The notes under the pieces: model-generated
The model's input: only the letters and a program-made list of their open reading frames with translations
What the model was told of the DNA's origin: nothing
Databases searched by the model: none
Source of the DNA: Microbacterium sp. B19
GTDB lineage: Bacteria; Actinomycetota; Actinomycetes; Actinomycetales; Microbacteriaceae
Direction of reading: 5' to 3'
DNA: 39,322 nt
NCBI RefSeq assembly: GCF_000333395.1
Contig: NZ_BADA01000349.1
Coordinates: 1 to 39,322, forward strand
Shown: in pieces, positions 23,621 through 39,322 of the stretch
Numbering within the stretch: the first letter of the stretch is position 1
Layout: every line of letters begins with the position of its first letter
Program-made: the position numbers and the translations under genes

Positions 23621-25261
23621 GTGCACGACCAGACCCCGGCCACACGGCGCGAGCTGCGTGACCGGGACGATCCGTCGCGCGAAACGGATGCCGAAGACCC
23701 GGCGCCCGCGCCCTCCTCGACCCCCGCGCCCTCCGACGCCTCCGCGCCGTCTACCGCCGTGGGCGTGACGGGCGGAGGAGATGCGGCCGCGGGAGGACCG
23801 ATACCCGCCGTGGCATCCTCCGCTCCTCCCACGTCCTCCCCTCCTCCCGAGACCGCGCCGGCCACCGCCCCCGCAAACGCCCCGGCCAACGCCACCGCCC
23901 CCGCCCTGCCCCCCGAACGCATCCTCATCGGCGCGCCGATCGCGCTGACGTGGGTCGACCCCGCTGCGGCGGCGGCCCCGCGCCCCGCCCCCGAGCTCGT
24001 GCTCACCGCGAGCGGCCCGCGCCCGCCCGACCTCCTCGCCGGGCGCCGCCGCCGCGCGCTGCGTCCGGGCACGGTCGTGCCGCCGGTGGTCCTGCTGCTG
24101 CTCGTCGCGGTGTACGTCGCGGTCACGCTGCTGTGGCCGTTGAACGCCGTGGCGCCCCGCGTGACTCCGCTCGTCGTGCAGACCGCCGCGGCGCCCGCCG
24201 CCGTCCCCGCGTGGCCGGCCCAGGGGGAGGCCGCGATCGCGGTGCAGGGCATGGGCGGCGTGCTCTCCTCGGCCGAGGCGCCCGAGTCGATCGCCAGCAT
24301 CACCAAGGTCGTCACGGCGCTGCTCGTGCTCGACCGGCTTCCGCTCGCGCCCGGCGAGCAGGGGAAGTCGTACGCGTTCACGCAGGCCGACAGCGACGAC
24401 TACTGGCAGTACCGCTTCCGCGGGGAGTCCTCGCTCGACGTCCCGGTGGACGGCAGCCTCACGGAACTGCAGATGCTCCAGGGCATGCTGATCGCCTCCG
24501 CGAACAACTACGCCCAGCGGCTGGCATCCGATCTCTGGCCGTCCAACTCCGACTTCGTCGCCGCCGCGACCGTGTACCTGGCCGACCGCGGCATCACGGG
24601 CATCACGATCGTGAACCCCACCGGGATCGAGGCGGGCAACACCGCGACCCCGGCCGCCCTCATCGCCCTCGCCGAGAAGGCGCTCCAGAACCCCGTGATC
24701 GCCGAGATCGTCCGCACGCCCGAGCTCACGCTGCCGGGCGCCGGCACGTTCAAGAACGGCAACCCGCTGCTCGCCGACCCGGGCGTCGTGGGCATCAAGA
24801 CCGGGACCCTGGATGCCTGGAACCTGCTGTCGGCGAAAGACCTGACGGTGGGGTCGGTGACGGTACGCACGTACGCCTCCGTCCTCGGACAGCCCGGGCC
24901 CGACTCCCGCGACCAGGCGGCGCGCGACCTGTTCGCGCGGCTGACGGAGGAGATCCAGCTCCGCACGTCCGTGCCGGCAGGAACGGTCGTCGGCAAGGCC
25001 ACGACGCTGTGGGGCGAGGACGTCGCGCTCGTCACCGCGTCCGACGCGCAGAACGTGCTGTGGAACGGCGCGAGCGCCACCGCCGACACCTCGTTCACGC
25101 TCGGCGACGCACGAGACGCCGGCGAGACCGCCGGCGAGCTGATCGCGACGGGGCCGCTCGACGCCGCCACCGTCGACGTGCGGCTGCAGGACGACATCGA
25201 CCCGCCCAGCCCGTGGTGGCGGCTGACGCACCCGCTCGACCTGCTGGGGCTCGACGACTGA
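23621..25261 (+). CDS. D-Ala-D-Ala carboxypeptidase-like penicillin-binding protein
   Basis: A 546-residue serine DD-peptidase of the S11/peptidase type, anchored by one helix. Residues 1-145 are a cytoplasmic, disordered Pro/Ala/Ser-rich region, ending in GRRRRALRPG. The membrane anchor is VVLLLLVAVYVAVTLLW (about 157-173). The external catalytic domain has S226-x-x-K229 (ASITK), S293-A-N295 and K393-T-G395. It trims the peptide stems of peptidoglycan. The N-terminal region includes a GGAGGA/TCCTCC palindrome translated in frame (23764-23850). It starts at a GTG with a TAGCGT box 6 nt upstream and sits between two TPP-controlled units with no evident link to thiamin. Confidence 0.9.
   Translation: MHDQTPATRRELRDRDDPSRETDAEDPAPAPSSTPAPSDASAPSTAVGVTGGGDAAAGGPIPAVASSAPPTSSPPPETAPATAPANAPANATAPALPPERILIGAPIALTWVDPAAAAAPRPAPELVLTASGPRPPDLLAGRRRRALRPGTVVPPVVLLLLVAVYVAVTLLWPLNAVAPRVTPLVVQTAAAPAAVPAWPAQGEAAIAVQGMGGVLSSAEAPESIASITKVVTALLVLDRLPLAPGEQGKSYAFTQADSDDYWQYRFRGESSLDVPVDGSLTELQMLQGMLIASANNYAQRLASDLWPSNSDFVAAATVYLADRGITGITIVNPTGIEAGNTATPAALIALAEKALQNPVIAEIVRTPELTLPGAGTFKNGNPLLADPGVVGIKTGTLDAWNLLSAKDLTVGSVTVRTYASVLGQPGPDSRDQAARDLFARLTEEIQLRTSVPAGTVVGKATTLWGEDVALVTASDAQNVLWNGASATADTSFTLGDARDAGETAGELIATGPLDAATVDVRLQDDIDPPSPWWRLTHPLDLLGLDD
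23764..23850. repeat. Palindromic repeat family H inside the carboxypeptidase gene
   Basis: GGAGGAGAT...CGGGAGGAC on the left and GGCATCCTCCGCTCC...CCCCTCC on the right form an imperfect palindrome. The same blocks, in the same order, occur in the linker of fbiC at 38721-39060. Here the element is in frame within the disordered N-terminal region. Confidence 0.6.
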
Positions 25262-25271
25262 GCGCCTGTGC

Positions 25272-25277
25272 TACCTT
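25272..25277 (+). promoter_or_regulatory. Candidate -10 box of the thiMED operon
   Basis: TACCTT fits TANNNT and lies about 10 nt before the TPP aptamer, just after the stop of the previous gene. Confidence 0.4.
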
Positions 25278-25284
25278 CGCGGCA

Positions 25285-25354
25285 GTGACACGGGGTGCCC
25301 CATGGGGCTGAGAACACACCCGTCGAACCTGATCTAGTTCGTACTAGCGAAGGG
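25285..25354 (+). promoter_or_regulatory. TPP riboswitch upstream of thiM
   Basis: The THI element is recognised by ACGGGGTGCCCC, GGGGCTGAGA, ACACACCC, GAACCTGATCTAGTT and the 3' box GCGAAGGGA. The AAGGG of the 3' box is also the best Shine-Dalgarno for thiM, implying control of translation initiation. Confidence 0.96.
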
Positions 25355-25363
25355 ATGTCGCGA

Positions 25364-37205: not shown

Positions 37206-37289
37206 GGCATCCATCCTGCCAGCGACGATGGATGCCGTCGGCCCCCACGCCTCACGAGACGGCAACGATCCGCGGCGGGGCCGCTCGAC

Positions 37290-37360
37290 CGCGAGACTGC
37301 ACGCGCCTGACGAAACCGCCGCAGTGTGCAGTGGGTTTGTCAGGCAGATGCAGTCTCGCG
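37290..37360. repeat. Palindromic repeat family A, copy 3 (71 bp)
   Basis: 22/27/22 layout as in copies 1 and 2. The arms contain CGAGACTGCACGCGCCTGAC and GTCAGGCAGATGCAGTCTCG. The interior (GAAACC...GGGTTT) is largely different in sequence from the other copies but again begins and ends with complementary bases. It is followed to about 37435 by a GC-only low-complexity tract rich in GGCCCGC units. Confidence 0.9.
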
Positions 37361-37449
37361 GGCCCGGCAGCCCGGCCCCGGACCCGGCGCGCGCCCCGGC
37401 CCGCAACCCGGCCCGCACGCCGCGCGGCCCGGGTGTCGGAGGGGAGGGA

Positions 37450-37455
37450 TAGCCT
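37450..37455 (+). promoter_or_regulatory. -10 box for fbiC
   Basis: TAGCCT lies 6 nt before the ATG at 37462, consistent with a leaderless transcript. The intervening GGAG is too close to act as an ordinary SD. Confidence 0.5.
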
Positions 37456-37461
37456 GGAGCG

Positions 37462-39322
37462 ATGAGTACGGGCAGCGCTGCGCCGCAGGCCGCACCGGCC
37501 CGGGGCGACTCGATCGACGACCTCCTCGCCCGTGTGCGCGACGGGCACCGGCCCGACGTCGACGAGACCGAGCGGCTGCTGCACGCCCCGCTCGAGGTGG
37601 TCTCCCGCGACGCCGCCGCGCTGCGCGACGAGGGGCTCGAGCGCGCCGGTCGACCGCGGGTCATCACGTACTCGCGCAAGGTGTTCGTGCCGCTCACGAC
37701 CCTGTGCCGCGACCGCTGCCACTACTGCATCTTCGTCGACACCCCCGGGCAGCTCGCGCTCCTCCGCAAGCCCGCGTACATGAGCCCCGAGCAGGTGCTC
37801 ACGGTCGTGCGGCAGGGGCAGGCGCTGGGCTGCAAAGAGGCGCTGCTGACGCTCGGCGACCGCCCGGAAGAGCGCTGGCCCGAGGCCCGCGCGTGGCTCG
37901 ACGAGCACGGTTTCGCCTCGACCATCGACTACGTCGCGCACATCGCACGGCTCATCACCGCCGAGACGGGCATGCTCGTGCACGCGAACCCCGGCGTGAT
38001 GCACCCCGCCGAGCTCGCGACGCTCCGCCCGGTCTCCCCGTCGATGGGCATGATGCTCGAGACCACCTCACGCCGGCTGTACGAAGAGCCCGGTCAGGTG
38101 CATTTCGGGTCGCCCGACAAAGACCCCGACCTGCGTCTGCGCGTCATCGACGACGCGGGGGCCGCTGGCATCCCGTTCACGACCGGCATCCTGGTCGGCA
38201 TCGGCGAGACCGTCCGCGACCGCGCCGAGTCGCTCATCGCCCTGCGCGACCTCGACGACCGGCACGGCCATGTGCAAGAGGTGATCGTGCAGAACTTCCG
38301 CGCGAAACCCCGCACCGCCATGCAGGGAGCCCCGGATGCCGACATGCACGAGTACCTCGCGACGGTCGCCGTCGCGCGCCTCGTGTTCGGACCCGACATG
38401 CGCATCCAGGTTCCGCCGACCTCTTCGACCCGCGCGAGCTGGGGCTGCTGATCGGGGCCGGGATCGACGATGGGGGCGGAGTCTCGCCGCTCACGGCCGA
38501 CCACGTGAACCCTGAGCGCCCCTGGCCGCACATCGACGACCTCGCGGCCCAGACCGCTGTCCACGGATTCGCGCTCCGCGAGCGCCTCACCGCGCACCCC
38601 GAGTACGTGACGGACGCGGCGACGTGGATCGACCCCGCGCTCCACGCCCCCGTGCGGGCGTTGATGGATGCCACGGGCCTCGCGGCCGACGTGATCCCGG
38701 GGGCTCCACGGCCCGCCGCGGGAGGAGATTCCGGCACGGGAGGACAGCCCGAGGCCTTGGCATCCTCCGCTCCCCGAATCCCCTCCGCCCCCGGCGGCGT
38801 CGCCCCCGGCAGCCCCGCAGCCGACAGCGCCGCACCTGCCCTGCACAACCCCGCCACGGGAGGAGATTCCGGCGCGGGAGGACAGCCCGAGGCCCTGGCA
38901 TCCTCCGCTCCCCGAATCCCCTCCGCCCCCGGCGGCGTCGCCCCCGGCAGCCCCGCAGCCGACAGCGCCGCACCTGCCCTGCACAACCCCGCCACGGGAG
39001 GAGATTCCGGCACGGGAGGACAGCCCGAGGCCGCGGCATCCTCCGCTCCCCGAATCACCTCCGCTCGTCCCGCCGGCGACGCGGCTCGCGCCAATGCCCC
39101 GGCGGCAGCGCACAGCGCCGACCCCGGCGTGCTCCGTCTCGCCGAGGCCGCAGCAGACCCGCTCGCGCTCGACGACGCCGACTGGACGCGGCTGCTCCAC
39201 GCCACCGGCGCCGAGCTCGACGCCCTGACCGCCGCGGCCGACGACGCGCGTCGCTACACCGTCGGCGAGCCGGTGACCCTGGTCCGCAACCGCAACCTCA
39301 CCTCGACCGGCTACCGGCGCGC
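37462..39322 (+). pseudogene. fbiC: FO synthase FbiC, frameshifted and truncated by the window end
   Basis: FbiC fuses two radical SAM halves (CofG and CofH) that make FO, the deazaflavin core of coenzyme F420, from a tyrosine-derived precursor and a ribityl pyrimidine. The CofG half is intact to about 38417, with CxxxCxxC at Cys82/86/89. The first frame then stops at 38449-38451 ([10 protein letters not shown]). The expected sequence ([17 protein letters not shown], then [14 protein letters not shown]) continues in the +3 frame from 38418, as if one base were missing in PPNLF. A conserved Trp is also replaced by Gly at GIDDGGGVS. The second frame stays open to the window end, passing an expanded repeat linker into the start of CofH ([11 protein letters not shown]). 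It may be a real disruption or a sequencing error. Confidence 0.8.
38721..39060. repeat. 138-bp tandem repeat in the fbiC interdomain linker (family H)
   Basis: Two full 138-bp units (38721-38858, 38859-38996) and part of a third. Each codes in frame for 46 residues ([20 protein letters not shown]...ALHNPAT). Each unit holds an imperfect palindrome of about 66 bp, from GGAGGAGATTC to GAATCCCCTCC, that also occurs in diverged form in the carboxypeptidase gene at 23764. Confidence 0.92.

Follow-up and report, generated by a model that had tools for sequence, protein, structure and literature searches.

Rickettsia palindromic elements (RPEs) are dispersed palindromic repeats that occur both between genes and, in frame, within genes for unrelated proteins; according to a review they measure 105-146 bp and are specific to Rickettsia (PMC2229807). 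That genus is the best-known setting for palindromic repeats read in frame within unrelated proteins; the case described here comes from an unrelated lineage and has a different build. It lies in a contig of Microbacterium sp. B19 (NZ_BADA01000349.1; the window, meaning the whole stretch of 39,322 bp that was analyzed), where an initial annotation made from the sequence alone had proposed that a palindrome is embedded in frame in a D,D-carboxypeptidase and in FbiC, resembling the insertion of RPEs into tolerant protein linkers. The core of the repeat is GGAGG-N13-GGAGG-N20-CCTCC-N13-CCTCC, 66 bp with fixed box spacing: each arm repeats the GGAGG box directly at a distance of 18 bp, and the arms are opposed across 20 bp. 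The whole element is an imperfect inverted repeat of ~80-85 bp, its symmetric span being taken from the family alignment. We consider it best explained, with a probability of roughly 0.75, as a Microbacterium-specific dispersed palindromic repeat of the type of repetitive extragenic palindromes (REPs) or miniature inverted-repeat transposable elements (MITEs), whose in-gene copies are passengers in tolerant linkers.

Like the RPEs, the Microbacterium repeat is found in frame in unrelated proteins and is absent from orthologues, but it is shorter, actinobacterial and built on four GGAGG boxes at fixed spacing. It works like the RPEs yet is not an RPE, being set apart by taxon, length and build. 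CGTC-tagged REPs, among them RPE-4 and RPE-6, have no dedicated transposase, form mostly inverted dimers and in some cases lie in frame; they are reported from five phyla, Actinobacteria not among them (PMC3733652). The Microbacterium repeat likewise lacks a known dedicated transposase, and its outer end reads CGTC in part of the source genome's clade, but most other Microbacterium species have a different outer flank consensus, and the CGTC end is not family-wide. MITEs such as ERIC and Correia are small inverted repeats that can fuse in frame with genes, according to the RPE review already mentioned (PMC2229807). The Microbacterium repeat shares their terminal inverted repeats, complementarity exceeding expectation in the outermost pairs (columns -2 to 1) and reaching 96-100% in the boxes; at the three loci compared below, none of which has a clean empty site, no target duplication was seen. 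A search of the open-access literature found no description of this Microbacterium repeat.

Inverted pairs, many copies and species-level families also bring the repeat close to GTAG REPs and to REPINs (REP doublets forming hairpins). These features, together with the intergenic dispersal and the species-level consensus, would fit a REPIN mobilized by a REP-associated tyrosine transposase (RAYT), a Y1 HUH enzyme. However, the flank consensus from 18 genomes shows GTAG at neither end, and a search for Y1_Tnp, the RAYT transposase, which did not extend to other transposase families, gave no match in the source genome (0/1; 87% complete) or in 22 same-genus genomes (0/22), against matches in 5/14 known genomes in the positive-control search. 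The absence of Y1_Tnp from these 23 genomes of the genus largely refutes a RAYT-driven REPIN, which we regard as very improbable.

The window holds four copies of the element, all on the forward strand. One (23768-23847, boxes at 23774-23839; covariance-model match, E 1e-13) lies in the D,D-carboxypeptidase (23621-25261, forward strand; Peptidase_S11 by family match), within its low-complexity N-terminus and ahead of a hydrophobic stretch judged by eye. The other three, also covariance-model matches, lie in the CofG-CofH linker of FbiC, at 38715-38794, 38853-38932 and 38991-39070, with boxes at 38721-38786, 38859-38924 and 38997-39062. The model was built from 16 copies, these four included, and matched nothing else in the window up to E 0.01; Rfam gave no match at the elements. 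The four matches fall where the initial annotation had seen sequence blocks recurring in the same order, its 66-bp palindrome coinciding with the box spans just given, and the roughly 2.5 tandem copies of 138 bp that it had counted in FbiC are recovered by Tandem Repeats Finder as an array at 38712-39064 on the forward strand (period 138 bp, 2.6 copies, 96% matches), whose unit is the element plus about 58 bp of FbiC linker. The two host proteins are indeed unrelated, Peptidase_S11 against Radical_SAM/CofH_C, the latter tested on the orthologue in G009 (G-numbers denote other genomes compared, L-numbers loci), and the copies in both are read in the same frame, as GGA GGA .. GGA GGA or GGA CAG .. 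GCA TCC TCC. The fbiC gene itself, a CofG-CofH fusion (37462-39322, forward strand; family assigned from the G009 orthologue), is cut by the window end and has a one-base frameshift near 38419, a point at which the reading frame is uninterrupted in all 11 relatives that have fbiC. This frameshift may be a sequencing error or a real inactivation; it lies upstream of the linker, whose translation is therefore taken from the frame that follows the shift.

The boxes occur far beyond chance. The window has 10 occurrences of GGAGG-N13-GGAGG where 0.19 would be expected, 8 of the 10 in register with the four copies, and none of 100 shuffled windows reached 10. In the source genome the full four-box pattern has 36 sites and its reversed control 0, which argues against the box spacing being an artefact of composition. 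Altogether 113 sites were collected, 44 from the source genome, 31 from G006, 5 from G007 and 33 from G009, the G006 and G007 sets being lower bounds (84 and 14 two-strand matches, against the 31 and 5 sites collected). Part of this collection came from a model in which the boxes carry weight, and the bare four-box scan serves as the model-free test. In an alignment of 101 of the 113, leaving out off-length and edge copies, the boxes are 97-100% invariant by position and the spacers variable. The palindrome as first proposed stands at the level of the family, where 61% of pairs are complementary on the axis against 28-41% on neighboring axes; it is imperfect, however, and an inverted-repeat finder at default settings reported no inverted repeat.

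Most of the copies examined lie between genes, which, like the sharing of the box skeleton by part of the genus, goes beyond the initial annotation. Of 72 loci (arrays) in four genomes, 64 are outside and 8 inside genes called with our own codon-score script rather than taken from annotation; the carboxypeptidase copy was moved by hand from divergent to in-gene, the caller having given 18 divergent and 7 inside. The 64 comprise 27 tandem, 17 divergent and 17 convergent loci and 3 unassigned, with no convergent bias. Tandem arrays are common, and copy number differs between orthologous loci. Also beyond the initial annotation is a third host protein in the source genome, a PxpB-PxpC fusion (PxpBC).

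An inverted repeat scattered in this way might instead act as RNA, for example to terminate transcription in both directions or to stabilize mRNA, and in the family alignment the box pairs do form a consensus hairpin with two helices and 11 pairs. Yet none of the 11 pairs shows a change on both sides, and two window stretches folded as single strands (z -0.76 and -1.45) are not clearly better than shuffles, 42/200 and 15/200 of which fold as well. Among 196 elements from 20 genomes, left and right spacers taken from different elements of one genome are alike at 0.577 (shuffled labels 0.508, maximum 0.537 of 300), and the two arms of one element, at 0.569, are no closer than the arms of different elements. 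The symmetry therefore belongs to the species consensus and is not maintained by compensatory change in each copy: spacers diverge toward a species consensus common to both arms, while the boxes stay nearly invariant. With no two-sided change and no covariation within elements we reject RNA structure, and with as many divergent as convergent loci we reject a terminator; an RNA element of any kind appears improbable.

The repeat is restricted to the genus Microbacterium as far as sampled. The four-box pattern is present in 62 of 247 Microbacterium genomes, with up to 66 sites each (66 in G216), against 0/247 for the reversed pattern, and an exact site is absent from the other 185. In an order-wide scan of 396 genomes it appeared in 10, namely 9/18 Microbacterium and 1/378 others, the single outside match being a low-complexity stretch; 16 genomes of other genera of the same family (Microbacteriaceae) gave 0/16. 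A wider scan placed 69 of 80 loci in Microbacterium and none in Rickettsia among the best 80 of 115 stretches. Judged by eye, six of the remaining 11 loci are simple repeats or an unrelated palindrome; the other five, from one Microbacteriaceae genome and two Actinomycetota bins, resemble real relatives, so the boundary of the repeat may lie slightly outside Microbacterium.

Could the in-gene copies be ordinary low-complexity Gly/Pro/Ser/Ala coding sequence with a chance likeness? The initial annotation had named similar segments in relatives without the palindrome as the observation that would favor this, and it holds weakly: in aligned relatives the N-terminus of the carboxypeptidase is likewise rich in Ala, Pro and Ser, with other sequence and without the boxes, so that this region is of low complexity anyway. 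The same element, however, lies between genes, which refutes the explanation, as the reversed control also argues. Over ten in-gene copies GGA accounts for 40/48 glycine codons, against 9.9% in called genes of the source genome, a bias unlike that of ordinary low-complexity coding sequence; this count includes copies of the same gene from related species, which are not independent, and across the three host genes of the source genome GGA makes up 12/15 Gly codons (tail probability 3e-10). We consider a chance likeness extremely improbable.

Orthologues with and without the segment support the proposal of a repeat inserted into tolerant linkers. In FbiC the element is present in three copies in the source genome, singly in G006, G007 and G009, and also in G068 and G250; of 11 relatives with fbiC searched with the model, G006, G007 and G009 gave matches (3/11) and 8/11 did not, including G020 and G016 at 90-91% identity. 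PxpBC carries it in the source genome, G009 and G006 and also in G072, G068 and G250, the model matching in 1/14 relatives searched (G006), source genome and G009 apart. For the carboxypeptidase, the source genome and 1/22 relatives (G009) have the element. Alignment with relatives had been suggested as the way to recognize clean insertions: the segment is absent from orthologues of all three hosts, but a clean insertion is not demonstrated because the linker sequence around the element also varies. The in-gene copies probably arrived as insertions.

Three further hosts come from two other species: G064 has the element in a molybdopterin oxidoreductase, and G063 has it in an ABC transporter and in a 2'-5' RNA ligase family protein. 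The 86 sites among the matches listed from 19 other species include 9 flagged in genes, of which 8 are credible; the ninth (L209), doubtful because its flanking frame appears non-coding, was left out. Five of the eight lie between two different Pfam matches and two in the FbiC CofG-CofH junction, and the eighth, the ligase copy (L253), is within a single Pfam match. The copies in FbiC, PxpBC and the carboxypeptidase are in phase 0, translated as GG..GG..SS..SS, and those in the oxidoreductase, transporter and ligase are in phase 2. The reading frame is therefore not fixed, and we reject a single mandatory frame given phase 0 in three host genes and phase 2 in three others of two species. The FbiC linker may be a general landing place. 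In G003 and G019 (L111, L110) it contains other in-frame inverted repeats, unlike the four-box element, and in G010 a large in-frame tandem expansion; the PxpBC linker of G006 (L205) has, next to the four-box element, a unit resembling GAGCCTGTCGTGGACCC that is repeated in tandem and in frame.

The main competitor of the passenger explanation holds that the element is a functional DNA site: a putative genus-specific protein would bind the boxes, in chromosome organization, repair or regulation, and selection would maintain them even in coding linkers. Apart from the invariance of the boxes over variable spacers, the species consensus common to both arms and the lack of gene orientation bias, this is consistent with five orthologous pairs between the source genome and G009, in which boxes agree at 100/100 positions, spacers at 58-90% and flanks at 78-97% (5/10 pairs were usable; the others differed in length, were wrongly oriented or had a flank that failed to align). 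Within genes, the third base of box codons is kept at 7/7, 7/7 and 6/6 in PxpBC, 7/7, 6/8 and 5/7 in FbiC and 8/8 in the carboxypeptidase, against 0.61-0.86 of other identical residues; the two 7/7 values in PxpBC compare with 0.61-0.65, and the 7/7 of FbiC between G009 and G006 with 0.72. The PxpBC linkers of the source genome and G009 have spacers that clearly differ in both arms though the flanks are 87-95% identical, a pattern which, in small numbers, fits either constraint at the DNA level or replacement by another copy. On the other side, box-weighted gathering would favor conserved boxes. Boxes also do change: the FbiC pair of the source genome and G009, when redone, agrees at 19/20 box positions (spacers 77-80%), and the lower values of 5/7 and 6/8 come from comparisons with the G007 FbiC. 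The 185 genomes without an exact site indicate that the element is dispensable. We hold a functional site to be a serious but less probable explanation. A somewhat more tentative idea is that a putative genus-specific DNA-binding or mobilizing protein, with a specificity that drifts by species, recognizes the four GGAGG boxes: the boxes would stay constant, and the spacer would serve as a tag that changes in both arms throughout the copies of one genome. If so, the protein's grip would be strong enough to hold rare codons in coding linkers, and linkers of unrelated enzymes would double as DNA sites.

For the dispersed repeat carried as a passenger, we propose that a copying or transposition process would have scattered copies, mostly between genes, and that tandem arrays would then have grown at many loci. 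Copies landing in interdomain linkers or low-complexity termini could be translated through and persist as passengers; they can be read through because the repeat is GC-rich and has no stop in the frames used. Those in FbiC, PxpBC and the carboxypeptidase would be read as a flexible Gly-Gly..Gly-Gly..Ser-Ser segment, with an effect on the protein that is probably near neutral.

Several results weigh against this scenario, beginning with the missing Y1_Tnp. Six loci of the source genome (L144, L143, L045, L146, L148 and L042) were sought in four relatives, and at the three that were aligned (L144, L143 and L045) we saw neither a target duplication nor a clean empty site, since the surrounding sequence differs too. 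At L144 the element is missing from G009, G068 and G020 with neighboring sequence also replaced, and G006 has element-like sequence; at L143 it is absent from G009 and G020 amid other differences; the L045 element of G009 is partial and internally deleted. In addition, many sites are common to several species whose flanks share roughly 75-90% identity; many copies are therefore old, and the data do not demonstrate recent jumping.

The fixed box skeleton with species-specific spacers points to a putative sequence-specific factor that would recognize the boxes. As Microbacterium is a culturable actinobacterial genus with close relatives with and without the insert, the neutrality of the insert, its arrival and DNA-level selection through the linker are all testable.

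Other repeats are present in the window. The heptamer GGATGCC/GGCATCC occurs 107 times (54 and 53 on the two strands) against 9.4 expected from dinucleotide shuffles and 81.5 expected from the shorter words within it; its density is about 2.0-2.5 per kb in the G006, G009 and G250 loci and 0.7 per kb in G239 and G099. A second dispersed palindrome of ~77 bp, GAGACTGCA...TGCAGTCTC, has three copies (1344-1420, 4172-4248 and 37285-37361), and a 58-bp palindrome, GGTGTCCAGAACACGCC..., has two (5981-6038 and 6165-6222). At 31867-32095, 98-bp units carrying ACAACTCC/GGAGTTGT motifs in inverted orientation form an array. Two TPP riboswitches (Rfam) flank the carboxypeptidase gene, at 23474-23583 on the reverse strand and 25281-25372 on the forward strand.

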